A stretch of DNA of 64,000 nt, from NCBI RefSeq assembly GCF_009720385.1, contig NZ_WARX01000006.1, positions 372,001-436,000 on the forward strand, read 5' to 3'. A program made the translations under genes and the position numbers. Below are positions 47,095 to 56,362 of the stretch, piece after piece (position 1 is the stretch's first letter; each line of letters begins with the position of its first letter). The DNA comes from Catellatospora vulcania (lineage in GTDB: Bacteria > Actinomycetota > Actinomycetes > Mycobacteriales > Micromonosporaceae). The notes beneath the pieces are model-generated. The model was not told where the DNA came from and searched no databases. It was given only the letters and a program-made list of their open reading frames with translations.

Positions 47095-48495
47095 CTAGGG
47101 GAGGGTCCAGATCTGGTTGCCGGAGGCGGCGCAGGTCCAGATCTGGAGGCGGGTGCCGTCGGCGGTGCCCAGGTCCTTGGCGTCGAGGCACTTGGCGGAC
47201 TGGGGGTTGCGGAGGTTGCCGTTGGACTGGGGCTGCCAGACCTGGGCTCCGGAGCCGTTGCAGTCCCAGAGCTGGATCAGGGCGCCGTTGGCGGTGGAGC
47301 CGCTGGTGATGTCCAGGCACTTGCCCAGCGCGCGGATGGTGCCGTCGGTGCCGACGGTCCAGTTCTGCGCGGTGGTGCCGTTGCAGGTGTAGAGCTGGAT
47401 CGCGGTGCCGTTGGCGCTGCTGGCGGCGGCGACGTCGACGCACTTGCCGGACGCCTGGCCGACGATCCGGCCGGTGCGGCCGCCCGGGGGCGGCGACGAC
47501 GGCGGGGTGGTGCCGCCGATCGCGACCTCGTAGATGGCACTGACCAGCGACGTAGCGCCCGTGGTGTCCTGGGACAGCTCCCAGTTCATCATGCCGCCGG
47601 CGTTGGCCTTGGCCCACGCGGTCTTGCTGCGGATGGTCGGCAGGCCGTTGTAGCACTGCTGCACGCCGCTGACCGTGGTGCAGTCGCGGTTGGCGTTGGC
47701 CGGGTCGATCGCGACGAGCTGGCTGTACGTGTAGTACGTCGGGCGGCTGTAGAACGGCACGCCCAGCACGGCCTTGCTCGCGGGCAGGCCGCGGCCCTTC
47801 CAGAAGTTGACCGCGTTGATCGACCAGTTGTAGTTGGCGTGCGGGCTGCCGCCGTCGTACGCCATGATGTTGAGCCAGTCGACGTAGCCGAACACGGCCG
47901 GCTGCACGCCGCCGGCGGTGCCGCCCTCGGACACGACCGCGGCGGTGAGCAGCTTGCCCTGGTTGTGCAGGGCGGTGCTGAGCTGGCCCATCAGCGCGGT
48001 GTAGTTGTTGCCCGAGGTGCCGGGGTCCGGGTACTCCCAGTCGATGTCGACGCCGTCGAGACCGTACTGGTTGACGAGGTTCATCATGTTGTTGACGAAC
48101 GCGGTGCGCGCGGTGGCGTTGCCCGCCAGGGACTCGAACGCCGAGTCGTTGCCGTCGTTCCAGCCGCCGACGGCGATGGAGACCTTCACGTTGTTGGCGT
48201 GGGCCAGCGAGACCAGCGAGGACAGCTTGGACGGATTGTCCAGGCCCTGCAGGCTGCCGTTGGCGTTGGGCAGGATGAACGCGTAGTTGATGTGCGTCAG
48301 CTTGCCGTACTGGATGGAGTTGACGCTGCCGGCCCACGAGGGCATGTAGCCCACGCTCTTGAAGCCGTTGGGCAGCACGACCGCCTGGGCCGTCGTGGCC
48401 GGGGCCAGCGCGACGGCGGCGCCGACGGCCGCGGCGGCCAGGGCGAGCCCGGCGGCGGCCCAGCGGCCGCGGCGGGCCTTGGGGGTGTCGGACAT
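47095..48495 (-). CDS. secreted GH18 chitinase with C-terminal ricin-type lectin domain
   Basis: Exported endochitinase of 466 residues. Signal peptide (RRGRWAAAGLALAAAAVGAAVALAPATTAQA), GH18 barrel with the catalytic signature GLDGVDIDWEYPDP and the substrate motif VDWLNIMAYDGG, a Pro-rich linker, then a CBM13/ricin beta-trefoil (three repeats: GKCVDVAAASSANG, GKCLDITSGSTANG, AKCLDAKDLGTADG, each followed by a QxW). AAGGGAT precedes ATG 48495; the longer frame to 48612 is discarded. A palindromic AGTTTAGT-type sequence lies about 180 bp upstream and could be an operator. Confidence 0.93.
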   Translation of the reverse strand: MSDTPKARRGRWAAAGLALAAAAVGAAVALAPATTAQAVVLPNGFKSVGYMPSWAGSVNSIQYGKLTHINYAFILPNANGSLQGLDNPSKLSSLVSLAHANNVKVSIAVGGWNDGNDSAFESLAGNATARTAFVNNMMNLVNQYGLDGVDIDWEYPDPGTSGNNYTALMGQLSTALHNQGKLLTAAVVSEGGTAGGVQPAVFGYVDWLNIMAYDGGSPHANYNWSINAVNFWKGRGLPASKAVLGVPFYSRPTYYTYSQLVAIDPANANRDCTTVSGVQQCYNGLPTIRSKTAWAKANAGGMMNWELSQDTTGATSLVSAIYEVAIGGTTPPSSPPPGGRTGRIVGQASGKCVDVAAASSANGTAIQLYTCNGTTAQNWTVGTDGTIRALGKCLDITSGSTANGALIQLWDCNGSGAQVWQPQSNGNLRNPQSAKCLDAKDLGTADGTRLQIWTCAASGNQIWTLP

Positions 48496-48675
48496 GGGGA
48501 TCCCTTCGGTGTCCGGTGCCGGGGCGGGTTGTCGCCACGGCACATCGACTGACCGGGCAGGCGGTGCGCCCCTCCCCGGTGCGGCCTGGGGGCAGGCGGC
48601 GGCCGGGGGCACGCGACGATCCGGTCGGGTGCGGTTTCGGACGAGGAAGCGGCTCGCCCCGAGTGGTGCGGATGG

Positions 48676-48794: not shown

Positions 48795-49718
48795 ATGACG
48801 ATCGGCTCCCACATCACGGTGTTCGCCGGCCGGCCCGTCGCGGAATACCCCGCTGACCTGGGCAAGGCCTCCCGATCCGGCACCGCCTGGCGCCTGGAGG
48901 ACCCGGACTACGACAACACCGGCGAGTTCCTGGTGCGGCTGGAGGCGCTGGCCGCGGAGGACTGGGCGGGCCAGGTCGGCGCGCTGGTCATCGGCAACTG
49001 GGGCGGCGCGTACGACAGCGCCCCGCCGATCGGCCGCATCGCCGCCGTGCTGCCGCGGTTCACCGGGCTGAAGGCGCTGTTCCTCGGCGAGATGACGTTC
49101 GACGAGTGCGAGATCTCCTGGATCCAGCAGGCCGACATCACTGCGCTGCTGGAGGCGCTGCCGGCGCTGGAGGTGCTGACCGTGCGCGGCGCGACGGGCC
49201 TGGGCCTCAAGCCGTTGCGGCACACCGCGCTGCGCGAGCTGACCATCGAGTCCGGCGGCCTGCCCGCCGACGTGGTGCGCGCCGTCGGCGAGTGCGACCT
49301 GCCCGCGCTGACCCACCTGGAGCTGTGGCTCGGCACCGACAACTACGGCGGCGACGCGACCGTCGAGGACCTCGCGCCGATCCTGGCCGGCACCCGGCTG
49401 CCCGCGCTGACCTCGCTCGCCCTGCGCGACGCCGAGATCGCCGACCTGGTCGCGGTGGCCCTGGCCGGTGCGCCGGTCGTCGCCCGGCTGCGGGAGCTGG
49501 ACCTGTCGCTGGGCATGCTCGGCGACGAGGGCGCAGCCGCGCTGCTGGCCGGCCAGCCGCTCACCCACCTGCGCAAGCTGGACCTGCACCACCACTTCAT
49601 CGGCGCGGCGGTGCTCGAACGGCTGACCGGCGAACTCGGCGCGGCCGGCGTGGAGCTCGACGTCTCCGGGGCCGACGAGCGCGACTGGGACGAGCGCTAC
49701 ATCGCGGTCTCCGAGTAG
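48795..49718 (+). CDS. STM4015-family leucine-rich-repeat protein
   Basis: 307 residues. After an N-terminal segment with the conserved VFAGRPVAEYPADL, the protein is a run of LRR-like strand-loop units: LKALFLGEMTFDECEISWI, LPALEVLTVRGATGLGL, LRELTIESGGLPADVV, LTHLELWLGTDNYGG, LTSLALRDAEIADL, LRELDLSLGMLGDEG and LRKLDLHHHFIGA. A binding or scaffold role is likely. GGAGG at 48784-48788 precedes ATG 48795. The gene abuts the STM4014-like gene with no gap, opening the conserved but uncharacterised STM4015-4011 set. Confidence 0.88.
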   Translation: MTIGSHITVFAGRPVAEYPADLGKASRSGTAWRLEDPDYDNTGEFLVRLEALAAEDWAGQVGALVIGNWGGAYDSAPPIGRIAAVLPRFTGLKALFLGEMTFDECEISWIQQADITALLEALPALEVLTVRGATGLGLKPLRHTALRELTIESGGLPADVVRAVGECDLPALTHLELWLGTDNYGGDATVEDLAPILAGTRLPALTSLALRDAEIADLVAVALAGAPVVARLRELDLSLGMLGDEGAAALLAGQPLTHLRKLDLHHHFIGAAVLERLTGELGAAGVELDVSGADERDWDERYIAVSE

Positions 49719-50795
49719 ATGCACCTCACCGTCGTCGGCAACCCCGGCCACCGCCGCGTCACCCTGTTCACCGCCGCGGCGGTGCGCGCCGGGCTGGCCG
49801 AACCCGAGGTGGTGTCCTGGCAGGACGTGCTCACCGGCGTCCCGCTGCGGCTGCGCCCCGGCACCGTCGTGCGCGTCGAGTCCCCGGGCGAGGACGCCGA
49901 GGTGGACCGGCTGCTACGCGGGGCCGTCGTGCCCGCCGAGCCCGGCGAGATCGTCGGCGGCCGGGCCTGGTACGCAGGCTTCGCCGCCGCCCTGGACCGG
50001 GTCGCCGCCGCCGCCCGCGACCAGGGCGCACATCTGCTCGCCGACCCGGCCGAGACCCTGCTGATGTTCGACAAGACCGCCTGCCACGCCCGGCTGCTCG
50101 GGGCCGGCATCCCGGTGCCCGCGGCGCTGCCCGGGTCCCCGGCGAGCTGGGCGCAGCTGCGGTCCTGGCTCGACGAGACCGGCTGGCGGCGGGTGTTCGT
50201 CAAGCCGTGCCACGGCTCCTCGGCGTCCGGGGTGATCGCGCTGCAGCTCGGCAGCGGCGGCCGGATCCTGGCCACCACCTCGGTCGAGCTGTCCGGTGGG
50301 CGGCTGTTCAACTCGCTGCGGGTGCGCCACTACCGCGACGAGCGCGACGTGGCCGCGATCGTGGACCGGCTCGCCCCGGACGGGTTGCAGGTGCAGCGCT
50401 GGCTGCCCAAGGCGGGGCTGGACGGCCGCGTCGTCGACCTGCGCGTGGTGACCGTGGCCGGCGAGCCGTCGCATGTGGTCGTGCGCGGCAGCCGCTCCCC
50501 GATGACGAACCTGCACCTGGGCGGCGTACGCGGCGACCTGTGCGCGCTGCGCGCCGCCGCCGGGCGGCACTACGCCGAAGGGCTGGCCACCTGCCGTGCC
50601 GTCGCCGCCTGTTTCCGCGGCAGCCTGCACACCGGCGTCGACCTGATGTTCGCCGCAGGCTGGCGCTCGCACGCCGTCGCCGAGGTCAACGCCTTCGGCG
50701 ACCTGCTCCCCGGCCTGCACGTCGACGGCCGCGACACCTACGACGCCGAAGTAGCCGCCCTGCTCACCTGCGCCCGCACCGGAGCCGTCGCATGA
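49719..50795 (+). CDS. STM4014-family protein (ATP-grasp-like)
   Basis: 358 residues starting directly after the STM4015 stop. The middle contains VNLFDKTACHARLLGAGIP-type sequence (here LLMFDKTACHARLLGAGIPVPAALPG), followed by RRVFVKPCHGSSASGVIALQL, which has the Lys-Pro-x-x-Gly-Ser-Ser character of ATP-grasp nucleotide loops, and a late AEVNAFGDLLPG metal-site-like segment. ATP-dependent ligation of a carboxylate to an amine is therefore plausible. The substrate is unknown. The gene is followed by a 210-bp GC-rich hairpin region before the rest of the set. Confidence 0.85.
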   Translation: MHLTVVGNPGHRRVTLFTAAAVRAGLAEPEVVSWQDVLTGVPLRLRPGTVVRVESPGEDAEVDRLLRGAVVPAEPGEIVGGRAWYAGFAAALDRVAAAARDQGAHLLADPAETLLMFDKTACHARLLGAGIPVPAALPGSPASWAQLRSWLDETGWRRVFVKPCHGSSASGVIALQLGSGGRILATTSVELSGGRLFNSLRVRHYRDERDVAAIVDRLAPDGLQVQRWLPKAGLDGRVVDLRVVTVAGEPSHVVVRGSRSPMTNLHLGGVRGDLCALRAAAGRHYAEGLATCRAVAACFRGSLHTGVDLMFAAGWRSHAVAEVNAFGDLLPGLHVDGRDTYDAEVAALLTCARTGAVA

Positions 50796-50829
50796 CCCCA
50801 CCCGGCCTCCACCACCCGGCCGTGGGCTC

Positions 50830-50978
50830 GCAGTTTCGGGGGGGCGGCGCGCAACCGGGCGGGGGGTAGGGCCGGGGCCCCCCAACAGCAGGGGCCCCGC
50901 GCCCCGGGCGGGGGGCCCGCCGTTCGGGGGCGCCGGCGCGACCCGGGCCGTGAGTTCGCGCAGTCTCCCCGAAACTGC
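50830..50978. repeat. GC-rich block bounded by a 12-bp inverted repeat
   Basis: GCAGTTTCGGGG at 50830-50841 and its complement at 50967-50978 enclose about 125 bp of extreme G+C with long G and C runs and an internal hairpin. It interrupts the STM4014/STM4013 gene junction. Confidence 0.6.
50873..50899. terminator. GC hairpin inside the STM gene set
   Basis: 9-bp stem (50873-50881 with 50891-50899), 9-base loop. It could terminate or attenuate transcription between the first two and last three genes of the set. Confidence 0.4.
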
Positions 50979-51005
50979 AGGGCCGCGTCGCGGCGGGGGC
51001 GCGGC

Positions 51006-51821
51006 GTGAGCGTCGACATGGCCTCGCTTGTGGGGGTTTATGACATCGCGATGGTCACGGTCGACACCTTGCGGTATGACGTGGCGGCGGAGGAGGCCGC
51101 GGCGGGGCGGACGCCCAACGTGGCGCAGGTGCTGCCCGGTGGGCGGTGGGAGCCCCGGCACACCCCGGCGAGCTTCACCTACGCCGCGCACCACGCCTTC
51201 TTCGCGGGCTTCCTGCCGACGCCGGTGACGCCCGGACGGCACGAGCGGCTGTTCGCAGCCCGGTTTCCCGGCAGCGAGACCACCGCGGACGGCACCTGGG
51301 TGTTCGACGCCCCGGACCTGGTCACCGGGCTGCGCAAGGCCGGATACCACACGCTGTGCCTGGGCGGGGTCGGCTTCTTCAACCGGCTCTCGCCGCTGGG
51401 CAGCGTGCTGCCGGACCTGTTCGCCGAGGACCACTGGCGGCCCGAGTTCGGGGTGACCGAACCGGACTCGCTGCGCCACCAGCTCGACCAGCTCGAAATG
51501 AGCGTGGTCGCCGCGCCCGCGGCCCGGCCCCTGTTCACGTTCCTCAACATCTCGGCCCTGCACCAGCCCAACCGGCACTACCTGCCCGGCGCAACCGAGG
51601 ACGGCCCGGACAGCCACGCGGCCGCGCTGCGTTACGTCGACACCCGGCTGCCGCGCCTGTTCGAGCTGCTCACCTGGCGTCGGCGGCCGTGTTTCGTGGT
51701 GCTGTGCGCCGACCACGGCACCGCGTACGGCGAGGACGGCCACCAGGGGCACCGGGTCGGCCACGACGTGGTGTGGACGGTGCCGTACGCCGAGTTCACG
51801 CTGTCGCCGGGGGAGTGGTGA
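51006..51821 (+). CDS. STM4013/SEN3800-family hydrolase (sulfatase/alkaline phosphatase fold)
   Basis: 271 residues. The N-terminal DIAMVTVDTLRYDVA has the first metal-binding Asp and the position of the nucleophilic Thr/Ser of the alkaline phosphatase superfamily; the C-terminal FVVLCADHGTAYGEDGHQGHRVGHDVVWTVPYAEF carries the Asp-His and His ligands. Expected to hydrolyse or transfer a phospho- or sulfo-group; the substrate is unknown. GTG 51006 is the annotated start; there is no strong ribosome site, but GGCGGGGGCGCGGCGTGAG lies just upstream. One base separates its stop from the STM4012-like start. Confidence 0.85.
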   Translation: MSVDMASLVGVYDIAMVTVDTLRYDVAAEEAAAGRTPNVAQVLPGGRWEPRHTPASFTYAAHHAFFAGFLPTPVTPGRHERLFAARFPGSETTADGTWVFDAPDLVTGLRKAGYHTLCLGGVGFFNRLSPLGSVLPDLFAEDHWRPEFGVTEPDSLRHQLDQLEMSVVAAPAARPLFTFLNISALHQPNRHYLPGATEDGPDSHAAALRYVDTRLPRLFELLTWRRRPCFVVLCADHGTAYGEDGHQGHRVGHDVVWTVPYAEFTLSPGEW

Positions 51822-51822
51822 C

Positions 51823-53139
51823 GTGCTCGACGGCTCGCCCTACCAGGGCTACCTGTACGCGTACCCGCACAAGTCGGCGTACCGGCCGCTGCGGCCGCGC
51901 CCGGCGCTGCGCGAGGTGTGGGCCGGGCAGCCCCGCGACGCGCTGTTCCTGTACCTGCACATCCCTTTCTGCGAGATGCGGTGCGGGTTCTGCAACCTGT
52001 TCACCCGCGCCCAGCCGCCCGCCGAGCAGGTCGGCGCGTACCTGCGCCAGTTGCGGACACAGGCCGAGCAGGTCGCGGCGGCGCTCGGCCCGGCCCGCTA
52101 CGCACGGGCGGCGATCGGCGGCGGCACCCCCACCCACCTGACCGCCGACGAGCTGACCGAGCTGTTCGCGATCACCACCGGCGTGCTCGGCCTGGCACCG
52201 GCCGCGGCACAGCTGTCGGTGGAGACCTCGCCCGCGACCGCGACGCCCGACCGGCTGGCGGTGCTCGCCGCGCACGGCACCCACCGGGTCAGCATGGGCG
52301 TGCAGAGCTTCCTCGACGGCGAGGCCCACGCCGCCGGGCGGCCGCAACGGCGCACCGAGGTCGACCGGGCCCTGCTCGCGCTGCGCGACGCGGCGATCCC
52401 GCTGCTCAACGTCGACCTGATCTACGGCATCCCCGGGCAGACCCGCGACACCTGGACCTACTCGCTGCGCGAGGCGCTGGCCTGGCGACCCGAGGAGGTC
52501 TACCTCTACCCGCTGTACGTACGCCCGCTGACCGGCCTCGGCCGCCGGCACGGCGACGGGCCTGACCCGGACTGGGACCGCCAGCGCCTCGACCTGTACC
52601 GGCACGGCCGCGACCTGCTGCGGGAGGCCGGCTACCGGCAGTTGTCCATGCGTCAGTTCCGCCGCGCCGACGTGCCCGACCCGGACGGCGCCGACTACTG
52701 CTGCCAGGACGACGGCATGGTCGGCGTGGGCTGCGGCGCCCGGTCCTACACCGCCGACCTGCACTACTCGTTCGACTACGCGGTCAGCGTGCGCGAGGTG
52801 CGTGCCATCATCGACGACTACCTGGCCCGGCCTGCCGCCGACTTCGGCTTCGCCGAGTTCGGGTTCGCGCTCGACGGCGGCGAGCAGCGGCTGCGCTGGC
52901 TGGTGAAGTCGCTGCTGCGGGCCGAGGGCGTCGACCTGTCCGGCTACGCGGCCCGCTTCGGGTCCACGGTGGACGATGACTTTCCGCACCTGGCGGAGCT
53001 GACCGCGCGGGGCTGGGCCGCGGGTGACGATGATCGGCTGGCGCTGACGGACGAGGGCCTGGCGCACGGCGACGCGATCGGTCCGTGGCTGGTGTCGGGG
53101 CCGGTGCGGGCGGCGATGGGCCGGGCGGTGCTGCGGTGA
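51823..53139 (+). CDS. STM4012-family radical SAM protein (HemN-like)
   Basis: 438 residues. The radical SAM cluster motif CEMRCGFCN (CxxxCxxC) sits in LYLHIPFCEMRCGFCNLF near residue 50, as in HemN-like enzymes; GGGTPTHL, the VSMGVQSF region and LLNVDLIYGIPGQTRDTW are the further SAM-binding and HemN family segments, and the C-terminal half has the HemN_C character. Despite the similarity it is not coproporphyrinogen dehydrogenase by context. GTG 51823 starts one base after the previous stop; the TGA overlaps the GTG of the next gene. Two radical SAM enzymes in series suggest successive radical chemistry on one substrate. Confidence 0.9.
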   Translation: MLDGSPYQGYLYAYPHKSAYRPLRPRPALREVWAGQPRDALFLYLHIPFCEMRCGFCNLFTRAQPPAEQVGAYLRQLRTQAEQVAAALGPARYARAAIGGGTPTHLTADELTELFAITTGVLGLAPAAAQLSVETSPATATPDRLAVLAAHGTHRVSMGVQSFLDGEAHAAGRPQRRTEVDRALLALRDAAIPLLNVDLIYGIPGQTRDTWTYSLREALAWRPEEVYLYPLYVRPLTGLGRRHGDGPDPDWDRQRLDLYRHGRDLLREAGYRQLSMRQFRRADVPDPDGADYCCQDDGMVGVGCGARSYTADLHYSFDYAVSVREVRAIIDDYLARPAADFGFAEFGFALDGGEQRLRWLVKSLLRAEGVDLSGYAARFGSTVDDDFPHLAELTARGWAAGDDDRLALTDEGLAHGDAIGPWLVSGPVRAAMGRAVLR

Positions 53140-54050
53140 ACCTGCTGCTGCTCTACCGCGGGCCGCTGGCCAGCTGCAACTTCGACTGCCCGTACTGCCC
53201 GTTCGCGAAACGCCGGGACAGCCGCGCGCAGCTGGCCGCCGACCGGGCCGCGCTGGCCCGGTTCGCCGACTGGGTCGCCGCCAACCCGGACGGGGACACG
53301 CTTTCGGTGCTGTTCACGCCATGGGGTGAGGGGCTGACCCGCTCCTGGTACCGCGACGCGCTGGTGCGGCTGTCGCACCTGCCGCACGTCGCGAAGGTCG
53401 CCATCCAGACGAACCTGGCCGGGCGGCTGGGCTGGGTCGCCGACGCCGATCCCGCGCGGCTGGCGCTGTGGGCCACCTACCACCCCGGGCAGGTGCGCCG
53501 GGAGCGGTTCCTGGCCGCCTGCGCGACGCTGCGCGGGCACGGCATCCGGCACTCGGTCGGCATGGTGGGGCTGCCGGAGCACCACGCGGAGGCGGTCGCG
53601 ATGCGGGCGGCGCTGCCGGAGTCGACCTACCTGTGGATCAACGCCGCCGACGGGCACACCTACGACACGGCCGCCGAGGCGGCGTGGACGGCGCTGGACC
53701 CGCTGTTCGGGTACAGCGTGCGCCCGCACGCCTCCGCCGGGCACGAGTGCGGCGCGGGCGAGACGTCGCTGTCGGTGCTCGGCGACGGCACGGTGCGGCG
53801 CTGCCATTTCCTGCCCGAGCCGCTGGGCAGCCTGTACGACGGCAGCTACCGCGCCGCGCTGCGACCCCGCCCGTGCGGCAAGCCGACCTGCGACTGCCAC
53901 ATCGGGTACGTGCACCTCAAACGCCTCGGCCTGCACCAGGTCTTCGCGGGCGGCGTGCCCGAGCGGATCCCCGCCGGGCCGCCGCCGACCTGGGGCGTGC
54001 CGAGCGCGATGCTCACGTCTGCTGCTGGGGCAGGTATTCCTCCGGGGTGA
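53136..54050 (+). CDS. STM4011-family radical SAM protein
   Basis: 304 residues. Cluster motif CNFDCPYC in LASCNFDCPYCPFAKR at the very N-terminus. At the C-terminus further cysteines (GHECGAGET, RRCHFLP, RPCGKPTCDCHIG) could bind one or more auxiliary iron-sulfur clusters, as in SPASM-type enzymes that act on peptides. GTG 53136 overlaps the STM4012 stop. The 3' end overlaps the convergent DUF6745 gene by 38 bp. With the previous four genes it forms the conserved STM4015-4011 set; no function is known to me. Confidence 0.9.
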   Translation: MNLLLLYRGPLASCNFDCPYCPFAKRRDSRAQLAADRAALARFADWVAANPDGDTLSVLFTPWGEGLTRSWYRDALVRLSHLPHVAKVAIQTNLAGRLGWVADADPARLALWATYHPGQVRRERFLAACATLRGHGIRHSVGMVGLPEHHAEAVAMRAALPESTYLWINAADGHTYDTAAEAAWTALDPLFGYSVRPHASAGHECGAGETSLSVLGDGTVRRCHFLPEPLGSLYDGSYRAALRPRPCGKPTCDCHIGYVHLKRLGLHQVFAGGVPERIPAGPPPTWGVPSAMLTSAAGAGIPPG

Positions 54051-55176
54051 GGCCGAACGTCCACGCCACGCCCTCCCGCGCGGTGCGCACCGTCGGCGGC
54101 ACCCGCAGGAAGTAGGTCCGGAAGCTGCCGTCGGGCTCGGGGCTGGAGTTCAGCACCTCGACCATCACCAGCGGCTCGTCGCCGGGCAGCTCGACGCGCC
54201 ACAGCGTGCCGCACACATCCGACTGCGTCTTGGACGCGCCGGACTCGCGCAGGTAGCGGTCGAACCCGAAGTGCTCCAGCATGACCCGGCGCATCTCGGC
54301 ATTGGCCTCGGCGCGGATGCGGGCGACGGTCAGCGTCGGCAGCTCGGCGGCGATCTCCGCGGGCATCGGCATGCCGCTCCACGCGTGCAGGCCGAAGCCG
54401 TCCGGGTAGGACAGCGCCGGGCCGTCGCCGTGATGCAGGCGGCCCAGGTTGTCGCGGTGCACCTCGCGCGGGCGCTCGGTGAGGATCGCGACGTGCTCGA
54501 AAGCCCACCACCAGCCCGCGCTGCCGGCCACCCGGGCCAGGCCGTCGACGTCGGGATGACTGTCGAACGCGCCCAGCCAGGCCGCGTCGTGCTGGCCGTG
54601 GATCACGTCGAGCAGCGCGTCCTGCTGCGCCTGGCCGAACTCGCCGCCCTGGGCGCGGAACTGCTCCGTCAGGCGGGTGCGCAGCGGCGTGGCCAGCTGG
54701 TCGACGAGCTGCTGCCACGGCCGGCGCGCGGTGGCGGCCCAGTGCCGGGCGAAGCCGACCCCACCGAGCCGGGTGATCAGCGCGGCGCGGGCCAGCGCCC
54801 ACGGCCGGGTGCGGACCTGCGGGCGCACGCTGCGGCCGAGCTGGAGCCCGCCCGGCCGGACGCCCTGCGCGGCCAGTGCCTCGCGGACCTTCGTGTCGCC
54901 GGTCAGGCCGGTGCGCAGCATCGCCACCGCCGTCGCACCCGCGGCGGGCGAGCCCAGCCACAGCACCCGCTTCGGGGCGGGCAGTCCCGCGAGGGCGTAC
55001 GCGACGCGTACCCCCGCCTCGGCGCCCGCCCGGTCGGCCGGTTCGGTGCTCAGGCCGGTCGCCATCCAGCGCTCGGCGCGCGCGGCCAGCGCCATGTCGT
55101 CGTTGCGGCGGGCCTCGCGCCGGTTCGGCGGCTGCTCACCGTTCTTCTGCGCGGTCGTCGTCAGCGTCGTGTCCAT
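54013..55176 (-). CDS. DUF6745 family protein
   Basis: 387 residues. The C-terminal half is highly characteristic of the domain I know as DUF6745: HRDNLGRLHHGDGPALSYPDGFGLHAWSGMPMPAEI, ARIRAEANAEMRRVMLEHFGFDRYL, LWRVELPGDEPLVMVEVLNSSPEPDGSFRTYFLRVPPTVRTAREGVAWTFGL. The N-terminal half is helical and variable. Function unknown. ATG 55176 is placed seven bases after the preceding small gene; a longer start at 55224 would overlap it. The 3' end overlaps the STM4011 gene tail to tail, which may affect both mRNAs. Confidence 0.83.
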   Translation of the reverse strand: MDTTLTTTAQKNGEQPPNRREARRNDDMALAARAERWMATGLSTEPADRAGAEAGVRVAYALAGLPAPKRVLWLGSPAAGATAVAMLRTGLTGDTKVREALAAQGVRPGGLQLGRSVRPQVRTRPWALARAALITRLGGVGFARHWAATARRPWQQLVDQLATPLRTRLTEQFRAQGGEFGQAQQDALLDVIHGQHDAAWLGAFDSHPDVDGLARVAGSAGWWWAFEHVAILTERPREVHRDNLGRLHHGDGPALSYPDGFGLHAWSGMPMPAEIAAELPTLTVARIRAEANAEMRRVMLEHFGFDRYLRESGASKTQSDVCGTLWRVELPGDEPLVMVEVLNSSPEPDGSFRTYFLRVPPTVRTAREGVAWTFGLTPEEYLPQQQT

Positions 55177-55183
55177 GCCGCGC

Positions 55184-55504
55184 TCAGTCCGCGACCGGGC
55201 GGATCGCGCCGGGGAAGTACTCACGCTGGCGGACCACCCGGTAAGCCCCGGCGGCCAGCGCGATCGGCCCGTGCTCCTCGTGCACGAGGCGGCCGTAGCC
55301 CTCGATCAGCAGGAACAGCCGGCCCGGGTCGTCGGGCGGGCACAGCATCGCCACCCGCTCGCCGGTCACCACGTGCGCGTGGCCGGTCGCCTCGCCCAGC
55401 GCCAGCACCATGCGGTTGCGCCGGTCCCGCGGTGCGGGCATCAGCTCCGGCGGCAGCTCCTCCCGCGCGATCGGGACCACCAGCACATCGCCCTGCCGAA
55501 ACAT
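55184..55504 (-). CDS. small beta-rich protein beside DUF6745
   Basis: 106 residues: FRQGDVLVVPIAREELPPELMPAPRDRRNRMVLALGEATGHAHVVTGERVAMLC and HEEHGPIALAAGAYRVVRQREYFPG, a cupin-like or small barrel pattern. No catalytic role is visible. ATG 55504 has GGAG seven bases upstream; GTG 55510 is the alternative. It is directly upstream of the DUF6745 gene on the same strand and such small genes accompany DUF6745 in other actinomycetes, so the two probably function together (recollection, not verified). Confidence 0.72.
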   Translation of the reverse strand: MFRQGDVLVVPIAREELPPELMPAPRDRRNRMVLALGEATGHAHVVTGERVAMLCPPDDPGRLFLLIEGYGRLVHEEHGPIALAAGAYRVVRQREYFPGAIRPVAD

Positions 55505-55543
55505 AAGCACGCTCCACAGTCGACCATCGTGTCGCGGGCGACG

Positions 55544-56362
55544 CTAGCGGGCGGGTACGACACCGCCGCCGATGCCGAACAGCTCCTCCAGCACCACGGC
55601 CACGCCGTCCTCGTCGTTGCTCGCGGTGACCCGGTCCGCGCAGGTCAGGGCAAGTGGATGGGCGTTGGCGACGGCGACCCCGAGGCCCGCCCAGCGCAGC
55701 ACGGGCACGTCGTTCGGCATGTCCCCGAACGCGATCACCCGCTCGGCGTCGACGCCCCAGCCTGCGCACAGCCGGGCGAGCGTGTCCGCCTTGGACACCG
55801 ATGCCGCGCTGATCTCCAGCATGCCCTTGCCGCCGGAGTAGGTGATCGCGACGTCCGGCACCAGCGCCTGCAACCGGGTCAGCAGCTCCTCGGTGACCGG
55901 AGCCGGTGACCAGGCGAGCAGCTTCACGCAGCTCTCGGCCTCGGCCCACAGCTGCGCCCGGGTGGACACGGGCACCCGTACCACGCTGCGGGAGCTGACG
56001 TGGTCGAAGCCGGGGCCGGTCAGCGCCCGATGCCCGGTCTCGACCGCGAAGGCGATGCCGTCCAGAGCCGGGGTGAGCACGTCGGCGACCCGCTCGGCCA
56101 GCGCGATCGGCAGCGGCCCGACGATGGCGACCTCGCCGGTGGCCAGGTCGTAGACGGCTGCGCCGTTCGAGCACACCGCGACCCCGGTGATGCCCGCCGC
56201 CTCGGCGACGTCGCGGATCTCCCGGGGCGGCCGCGCGGTGCCGATCACGATGCGCGCGCCGGCCTGCGCGGCCCGCGCCAGGGCCGCCACCGTGCGGGCC
56301 GAGACGGTGTGGTCGGAGCGCAGCAGGGTGCCGTCGAGGTCGACGGCGACGACGTTGATCAC
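55544..56362 (-). CDS. HAD-superfamily Cof-type phosphatase
   Basis: 272-residue hydrolase of phosphosugars or nucleotide cofactors. Motif I DLDGTLL with catalytic Asp 8 and Asp 10, Ser/Thr motif II near IGTARPP, the C2B cap, motif III Lys in SKADTLARL, and motif IV FGDMPNDVPVLRWAG. ATYSGGKGMLEI-like sequence (here ITYSGGKGMLEISA) is typical of the Cof/YbjI type. GTG 56362 is the start. It precedes the small DUF6745-associated gene by 39 bp and may be co-transcribed, although a functional link is not evident. Confidence 0.87.
   Translation of the reverse strand: MINVVAVDLDGTLLRSDHTVSARTVAALARAAQAGARIVIGTARPPREIRDVAEAAGITGVAVCSNGAAVYDLATGEVAIVGPLPIALAERVADVLTPALDGIAFAVETGHRALTGPGFDHVSSRSVVRVPVSTRAQLWAEAESCVKLLAWSPAPVTEELLTRLQALVPDVAITYSGGKGMLEISAASVSKADTLARLCAGWGVDAERVIAFGDMPNDVPVLRWAGLGVAVANAHPLALTCADRVTASNDEDGVAVVLEELFGIGGGVVPAR

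Follow-up and report, generated by a model that had tools for sequence, protein, structure and literature searches.

The closest described parallels to the gene set considered here, the STM4015-STM4011 genes of Catellatospora vulcania, are the amino-group carrier, RimK, pearlin and graspetide systems. The set lies in a stretch of 64,000 nucleotides (RefSeq assembly GCF_009720385.1, contig NZ_WARX01000006.1, positions 372,001 to 436,000 of the forward strand), hereafter the window, whose first letter is position 1. LysX couples its substrate, by way of the amino group, to the gamma-carboxyl group on the terminal Glu of LysW, a haloarchaeal strain with a Glu-to-Ala change in ArgW requires arginine, and a GSWGR motif of the ligase recognises the EDWGE sequence of the carrier (PMC10433800), while electrostatic contacts between carrier and enzyme have been reported for LysW systems (PMC9303977). 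RimK adds Glu to the C-terminal end of ribosomal protein S6 (PMC4431377), pearlins are built on a carrier C-terminus with the participation of a radical S-adenosylmethionine (SAM) enzyme (PMC9303977), and in graspetide systems ATP-grasp and SPASM-type radical SAM enzymes occur together (PMC8939145).

In the window a single run of genes on the plus strand encodes STM4015, a leucine-rich repeat (LRR) protein, STM4014, an ATP-grasp ligase, STM4013, a hydrolase of the alkaline phosphatase superfamily, and two radical SAM enzymes, STM4012 and STM4011. A sequence-only reading had already described and placed these five genes correctly, and all five proteins exceed the curated NCBIfam cut-offs of their families. 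It had also noted no established function for them. The NCBIfam names of the families are locus-tag names only, no functional study of STM4011-STM4015 was found in the Creative Commons-licensed part of PubMed Central, where the locus names appear only in passing, in lists, and the family names yielded no paper, and the available part of an iron-stimulon paper shows no sign of the set. We propose, with a probability of about 0.5, that STM4014 loads the terminal Glu of STM4015, which would serve as carrier or substrate, and that STM4011 and STM4012 modify the tethered group.

Comparison with Described Systems

By the features tested the set is no LysW, PEARL (peptide aminoacyl-tRNA ligase) or HemN system, and it is probably no sulfatase system. 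It resembles the LysW and ArgW systems in having an acidic protein that ends in Glu, the acceptor in LysW and the proposed acceptor in STM4015, and an ATP-grasp ligase of the ArgX/LysX fold, a fold shared with other ATP-grasps and thus not diagnostic. It differs from them in that STM4015 is an LRR protein of ~300 residues rather than a zinc protein of ~54 residues with Cys ligands, in a tail that mostly reads R[YF]x[AS]VxE rather than EDWGE, in a ligase without GSWGR, and in the presence of radical SAM and phosphatase enzymes in place of the lysine/arginine enzymes. RimK and S6 provide a second parallel, an ATP-grasp ligase of the same fold group acting on a protein C-terminus, as is proposed for STM4014, but STM4014 has no match to a RimK family model at E 0.001, where NF038074 alone is found, and a dedicated partner protein and radical enzymes stand where RimK has a ribosomal protein. 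The logic of building on the C-terminus of a carrier with a radical SAM enzyme is shared with the pearlins, whereas the loader would be an ATP-grasp enzyme instead of a PEARL, the carrier a folded protein instead of a peptide, and the set holds no protease; no PEARL (LanB-like) ligase is found among the NCBIfam and Pfam matches of the set proteins. Graspetide systems also pair an ATP-grasp enzyme with radical SAM enzymes, there of SPASM type, but the STM4015 tail has no constant Ser, Thr or Lys with which to form an ester or amide, and the graspetide ligase PsnB ranks below ArgX/LysX in the structural comparison described below.

The C-terminal Tail of STM4015

STM4015 of the window (48795..49718, plus strand; NF038076, 346 bits against a cut-off of 275; the ATG at 48795 is the likely start) ends ...DERYIAVSE. 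A solved homologue is 2ra8 (E 8e-103), and ribonuclease inhibitor is also among its PDB homologues. Related loci (L numbers below) come from a genome scan that started from STM4011 and gave the best 80 of 403 relatives, all of them actinobacterial. Other phyla contributed few loci each, so that actinobacteria make up most of the taxon sample. The last residue is Glu in 116 of 118 STM4015 proteins from the fetched loci (matches of at least 200 bits, L001-L018 left out), and the two others, in L029 and L032, are broken frames, one of them frame-shifted before the tail and one with an internal stop. The ends of the enzymes are ragged, the commonest last residue accounting for 27 of 82 STM4014, 33 of 86 STM4013 and 20 of 89 STM4011 proteins. 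Terminal Glu is also found in single examples from Salmonella, Bacteroides, Paenibacillus, Methylobacterium, E. coli and Calothrix, and in 19 of 20 distinct matches (E 1e-20 or better) from genomes of the window's order, some of whose species may recur among the 80 fetched loci.

The tail consists of a poorly conserved acidic linker followed by R-Y/F-x-A-V-x-E-COOH. In an alignment of STM4015 proteins (n=126) the seven positions R Y x A V x E carry 3.5, 3.4, 2.5, 3.4, 3.4, 2.5 and 4.2 bits, and no other tail residue is as conserved as the terminal Glu, at 4.2 of 4.32 bits; the two filled columns that precede the seven positions carry ~1.3 bits each, and farther upstream the acidic stretch has many gaps. 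Position -6 is Tyr in 92 and Phe in 23 of the 118 proteins, and position -2 is Ser in 54, Ala in 30 and Gly in 29. Asp and Glu make up 40% of the 15 residues preceding the tail, compared with 16% of the STM4015 body, and among 40 pairs of STM4015 paralogues identity is 57% in the body, 15% in the 15-residue acidic stretch and 73% in the last seven residues. The protein as a whole is very acidic (median net charge -30.5), and STM4014 is the most basic member of the set (+4.5).

A terminal Glu might arise as a by-product of overlapping genes. This explanation was rejected because both Glu codons are used (75 GAG and 41 GAA), all three stop codons occur, and in 27 of the 116 cases the match of the next set gene lies more than 15 nt downstream or is absent.

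STM4015 also varies in copy number and architecture. In Actinomadura atramentaria (L070, 1856-6854) an array of STM4015 genes, five intact and one a fragment, lies ahead of one STM4014 gene. The Bacteroides STM4015 (L023) carries a WGR domain in front; on this Bacteroides finegoldii plasmid (7924-11941) the WGR-STM4015 fusion accompanies an STM4011-HAD (haloacid dehalogenase) fusion, and of STM4013 and STM4012 there are remnants only.

The STM4014 Ligase

STM4014 (49719..50795, plus strand; NF038074, 424 bits, cut-off 175; likely start 49719) was modelled with AlphaFold from 40 actinobacterial sequences, with a predicted local distance difference test score (pLDDT) of 94. In a Foldseek search with this model ranks 1-4 are taken by ArgX.LysW (3vpb) and LysX/ArgX.LysW (5k2m), at E 2e-14 to 4e-12, with a TM-score by query of 0.58-0.59 and 14-17% identity; RimK is found at ranks 17 (4iwx), 22 (5zk6) and 26 (5zct). 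A sequence-profile search places LysX first and RimK after biotin carboxylase. The C-terminal halves of STM4014 and LysX have D-x-R...R...T-N in common, and G166 S167 S168 of STM4014 align with a LysX stretch ending at GS. On this model the structural match would put STM4014 in a fitting functional group, because LysX and RimK both ligate to protein C-termini, yet ATP-grasp folds are alike and the margin is small.

Hydrolase and Radical SAM Enzymes

STM4013 (51006..51821, plus strand; NF038075, 406 bits, cut-off 250) probably starts at a GTG that is conserved in the sister strain C. methionotrophica (L027), where it overlaps the STM4014 stop as GTGA. The Pfam Sulfatase model is barely over threshold (25.5 bits versus 25), and a profile search of the PDB puts nucleotide pyrophosphatases/phosphodiesterases first (NPPs; 1.6e-6 and 2e-6, the best being 7n1s), with an arylsulfatase close behind (9.4e-6). 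A Thr is invariant in 88 of 88 rows at a position that we take to be that of the nucleophile, equivalent to the formylglycine position, an assignment made by eye from the NPP motif; Asp and His residues of metal-ligand type are invariant as well. Judged by these residues and matches STM4013 is probably of phosphatase/phosphodiesterase type, and sulfo-hydrolysis by the set is unlikely. What the sequence-only reading had called a sulfatase-fold hydrolase engaged in phospho/sulfo-hydrolysis thus keeps its fold superfamily and, probably, the phosphate side of its activity; a sulfatase in function it probably is not.

STM4012 (51823..53139, plus strand; likely start 51823) scores 607 bits with its own family (NF006067, cut-off 380), against 136 for HutW (cut-off 400), 131 for HemW (TIGR00539, 205) and 111 for HemN (TIGR00538, 325). 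Its first PDB profile match is HemN (1olt, 4e-51) and its second NocN (9p2u), a radical SAM methyltransferase, and its CxxxCxxC motif is invariant in 89 of 89 rows. The window's genome has a separate HemW over the cut-off, and E. coli LF82 has its own hemN beyond glnALG, ~25% identical to STM4012. Identity with HemN or HemW was rejected on the family cut-offs, and the concern in the sequence-only reading that the radical SAM proteins might be ordinary HemN-type enzymes is not borne out by the family scores, a comparison with no family tree behind it. By these scores STM4012 is a subfamily of its own within the HemN-like group.

STM4011 (53136..54050, plus strand; NF038073, 381 bits, cut-off 200) lies in a frame that opens at 53085; the GTG at 53136, in a GTGA overlap with STM4012, is the likelier start. 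The protein is 92% identical to that of C. methionotrophica. The extra C-terminal cysteines remarked on earlier are confirmed: the three Cys of the radical SAM motif, and another five in the C-terminal part, are invariant in 93 of 93 rows. The C-terminal half weakly matches the maturation enzyme SkfB (6efn, E 2.7e-4), which acts on a ribosomally synthesized and post-translationally modified peptide (RiPP), and the region appears twitch/SPASM-like.

Co-occurrence and Distribution

The five genes form a dedicated set, as the sequence-only reading had supposed, since STM4015, STM4014 and STM4011 co-occur in two genome samples, both of which include the window's genome. Among 198 actinobacterial genomes all three are over cut-off in the same 5. 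Among 298 genomes of the window's order STM4014 exceeds its cut-off in 15, STM4011 in exactly these 15 and STM4015 in 14 of them, the fifteenth having a full-length match just under it (257 bits against 275). The lack of co-occurrence that the sequence-only reading had named as counter-evidence was seen in neither sample. All five genes are present in 73 of the 80 actinobacterial loci and in every one of the 59 loci that are at least 18 kb long; of the other seven, four are short contigs that cut the set and three are split loci of Actinoplanes.

The split loci are instructive. In the three Actinoplanes (L053, L082 and L092) the STM4015, STM4013, STM4012 and STM4011 genes are together and STM4014 lies elsewhere in the genome, where in the two readable cases it follows a STM4015 of its own with an intact tail, in one of them with the genes for a DUF6745 protein and a protein of ~105 residues alongside. 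The third contig breaks off inside the displaced STM4014 gene, which has DUF6745 on its other side. In one genome of the order sample (G490) the only STM4015 found sits on a different contig from STM4014-STM4011 and ends in Glu. Because of these split loci it appears that STM4015 can act in trans and that it goes with the ligase as well as with the radical SAM half of the set.

Gene spacing bears on the possibility of a hidden precursor peptide. Three of the four core junctions are mostly of 30 nt or less in the 80 actinobacterial loci (64 of 73, 60 of 78 and 74 of 80), while the junction between STM4014 and STM4013 is that short in just 27 of 74 and, measured between family matches, has a median of 50 nt and a maximum of 331 nt; in Deinococcus the set genes overlap or nearly touch. 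The earlier reading had offered as alternatives that the LRR protein is the substrate carrier or that a short precursor peptide is hidden in the set. The former is now the most supported, and the latter is less likely because three of four junctions are mostly tight and all are tight in Deinococcus, with the reservation that the STM4014-STM4013 gap is often longer and that no search for conserved short open reading frames was made.

Five-gene sets are also found in Deinococcus, Methylobacterium, Paenibacillus, Salmonella and E. coli, and a Bacteroides-like contig of a viral collection (L152), where one relative was found, has all five genes. Of 5426 E. coli genomes, 154 match the stretch from STM4013 to STM4011 along 80% or more of the query, and in strain LF82 (L107, 5062-10598) the set lies between the sulfoquinovose (yih) genes and typA-glnALG, as it does in Salmonella (L024). 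STM4013 of Salmonella and E. coli is identical at 250 of 271 positions. Between these two, divergence is faster in the set genes and their HAD gene than in typA and glnA: the ratio of nonsynonymous to synonymous differences (pN/pS) is 0.20-0.37 for the former, 0.05 for typA and 0.02 for glnA, rough values, as synonymous differences are near saturation.

A Proposed Pathway and its Alternatives

Beside the computed observations, namely the family assignments, the co-occurrence, the terminal Glu, the ligase fold and the conserved residues of metal- and cluster-ligand type, we infer a ligation to the tail, an order of steps, a kind of substrate, its release and a use for two phosphatase-type enzymes, as follows. 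STM4015 would present an acidic, probably flexible linker and the conserved R-Y/F-x-A-V-x-E tail. STM4014, as a ligase of ArgX/LysX/RimK type, would activate the terminal Glu carboxylate and join to it an amine, probably an amino acid. The HemN-like STM4012 and the SPASM-like STM4011 would then carry out radical chemistry on the tethered substrate, and STM4013, together with a Cof-type HAD phosphatase where one is present, may take phosphate off the substrate or an intermediate. The product would be freed by a protease outside the set or kept on the LRR protein.

Several observations weigh against this proposal, beginning with the ligase. The fold match is not close, with a TM-score of 0.58 and 14% identity at rank 1, nor is it exclusive: D-cycloserine synthetase, LysX, PPIP5K, Ddl, PsnB and RimK come next, and the E-values of D-cycloserine synthetase, PPIP5K, Ddl and PsnB are within about 1000-fold of the top matches. 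Biotin carboxylase ranks third in the profile search, the best Pfam matches of STM4014, themselves weak, are YheC/D-like and sugar-transfer ATP-grasps, and in place of GSWGR the 40 actinobacterial sequences have the invariant G166 S167 S168. On the carrier side, the tail is not EDWGE, just 88 of 116 proteins conform to R[YF][VTI][AS]V[SAG]E, and the ends of the Salmonella (...MYTE), E. coli (...MFTE) and Bacteroides (...MITE) proteins share little with this pattern beyond Glu, the one constant residue in several other phyla. A diverged STM4015-like protein below the cut-off (G433) lacks the tail and has no other set gene within about 6 kb, and in the split Actinoplanes locus L082 the STM4015 beside STM4013 is in two frames and probably broken (it is outside the count of 118). 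STM4012 and STM4011, with net charges of -8 and 0, are not basic. No releasing peptidase is found among the set proteins by their NCBIfam and Pfam matches. The C-termini of two frequent neighbours, treated below, stay conserved in phages and in Deinococcus ficus with no STM gene in the fetched stretch. Finally, most of the sampling falls within the actinobacteria, and the genomes of the order may include species already represented by the 80 loci.

A set that holds no peptidase would fit a different outcome, in which STM4014 and the radical SAM enzymes build a permanent modification at the C-terminus of STM4015, and the modified LRR protein is itself the active product, as a sensor, scaffold or effector. 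The up to five intact STM4015 copies per locus, the greater identity of paralogues in the last seven residues than in the body and the WGR domain ahead of the Bacteroides protein point the same way, but the presence of two phosphatase-type enzymes, STM4013 and the HAD protein, would be accommodated more easily by a small-molecule substrate or intermediate. We regard such a permanent modification as unlikely, if still a serious alternative to a loaded carrier.

The chemistry might also be confined to the tail itself. PqqE acts on residues of PqqA itself, a precedent for radical chemistry of this kind, and in a RiPP-like scheme the radical SAM enzymes would act on the tail's own residues, Tyr/Phe and Glu for example, while the ATP-grasp enzyme formed a bond inside STM4015 and nothing was loaded onto it. 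The weak SkfB match of STM4011, the aromatic residue at -6 with Glu at -1, and PsnB among the fold matches of STM4014 are in keeping with this. It is improbable in our judgement, as the aromatic is not universal, with Asn at -6 in Salmonella and E. coli, and there is no constant Ser, Thr or Lys in the tail.

The usual role of LRR proteins is binding to partners, and the tail could serve for docking alone, STM4015 acting as a scaffold that gathers the enzymes via its C-terminus while STM4014 ligates a free small molecule. That the DUF6745 and ~105-residue proteins also have conserved C-termini, and that the free-amino-acid ligases Ddl and DcsG come close behind ArgX/LysX in the fold search, would suit this arrangement; that conservation in the tail peaks at the Glu, and that the enzymes closest to STM4014 in fold take a terminal residue of this kind as substrate, would not, and we give docking slightly less credence again than chemistry within the tail. 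Ordinary haem or sulfur metabolism, with STM4012 as HemN/HemW or HutW and STM4013 as a sulfatase, is disfavoured to the point of being hardly credible, for all the matches to the three haem families, the HemN hit in the PDB and the arylsulfatases among the STM4013 matches, by STM4012 scores far below the cut-offs of 400, 205 and 325 bits and by the separate HemW in the window's genome and hemN in E. coli. Anti-phage defence was considered and set aside, a PADLOC scan of eight proteins being unconvincing (the best match, at E 1.4e-6, is that of STM4012 to an undescribed model).

Neighbouring and Optional Genes

The sequence-only reading had ended the set at 54050. Its five core genes stand, but it missed three candidate partners that come next on the minus strand, and the gene set need not stop there. 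A DUF6745 gene (54013..55224; PF20530, 319 bits; start more likely about 55176) is convergent with STM4011, their 3' ends overlapping; upstream of it lies a gene for a His-rich protein of ~105 residues with the C-terminus R-x-V-A-D (55184..55510), followed by a Cof-type HAD-IIB phosphatase gene (55544..56362; TIGR00099, 139.8 bits, cut-off 137).

DUF6745 and the ~105-residue gene travel together. Both are in 44 of the 59 long actinobacterial loci and both are missing in 15, and where both are found (52 loci) they are on the same strand, the ~105-residue gene first, within 300 bp, upstream of STM4015 or downstream of STM4011. They also flank the set on plasmids of Streptomyces, Deinococcus and Methylobacterium, and profiles find neither at the loci from Paenibacillus, Bacteroides, Salmonella and E. 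coli. A close DUF6745 (>300 bits) is in 2 of the 15 set-bearing genomes of the order sample, in which 27 of 298 genomes have a match over the low Pfam cut-off; in the actinobacterial sample DUF6745 is over cut-off in 6 of 198 genomes, 4 of them shared with the set. With both genes missing from 15 of 59 long loci and not found beside the set in several other bacteria, and with a close DUF6745 in so few set-bearing genomes, the two proteins were rejected as obligatory parts and count as optional partners.

Both proteins have C-termini conserved to the last residue, Y-x-P-x-x-[QE]-T in DUF6745 and R-x-V-A-D in the ~105-residue protein. Their tails were downgraded as STM4014 substrates, being kept where no STM gene is seen beside them, and because they persist without STM genes alongside, a conserved C-terminus can have other causes. 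In Microcystis phage Ma-LMM01 (L109, 4968-6499) ~105-residue and DUF6745-like genes lie near genes for DNA polymerase and uracil-DNA glycosylase; in Deinococcus ficus (L108, 7989-9325) they precede a VWA-domain gene near a glutathionylspermidine-synthase-family gene; and in L114 (2631-4324) they are again together, with no STM gene in the fetched stretch. The N-terminal half of DUF6745 looks LRR-like in Deinococcus (L020, 13085-14086) and Methylobacterium (L021, 6955-7977) and different in the window and in Streptomyces, and the family profile has a weak match to an LRR protein in the PDB (E 0.15). The model of the ~105-residue protein (pLDDT 86.5, with tail residues 105-108 under 50) has no fold match in the PDB (best E 0.66).

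The HAD protein was rejected as a general partner, a profile search finding it in 2 of 80 actinobacterial loci. HAD genes with matches to the Cof family adjoin the set in Salmonella (174 bits with TIGR00099), in E. coli LF82 (180) and in one Deinococcus (115, under the cut-off), and in Bacteroides a Cof-like HAD domain, also under the cut-off at 70 bits, is fused to the C-terminus of STM4011.

Between STM4014 and STM4013 of the window is an imperfect palindrome of 149 bp with perfect 12-bp terminal inverted repeats (50830..50978, without strand). It lengthens the gap between the two genes, is absent from the sister strain C. methionotrophica and has partial matches of about 25-68 bp at other places in the genome; it looks like a small mobile element, incidental to the gene set. 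On the other side, a GH18 chitinase-like protein with a ricin-type lectin domain (47095-48612, minus strand) adjoins the set.

Conclusions

If the terminal Glu of STM4015 is the acceptor, a gene set present across several phyla gains a defined first step, a residue to mutate and an assay by mass spectrometry. More tentatively, and with somewhat less confidence than in the loading of STM4015 itself, these LRR proteins may represent a new class of covalent carrier for a metabolite or modification built by radical SAM enzymes, in actinomycetes, Deinococcus, Bacteroidota, Bacillota, alphaproteobacteria and enterobacteria, including some E. coli and Salmonella. To our knowledge the LRR has not so far been described as a carrier-protein fold, and, if the proposal is true, carrier-protein biochemistry would gain one.

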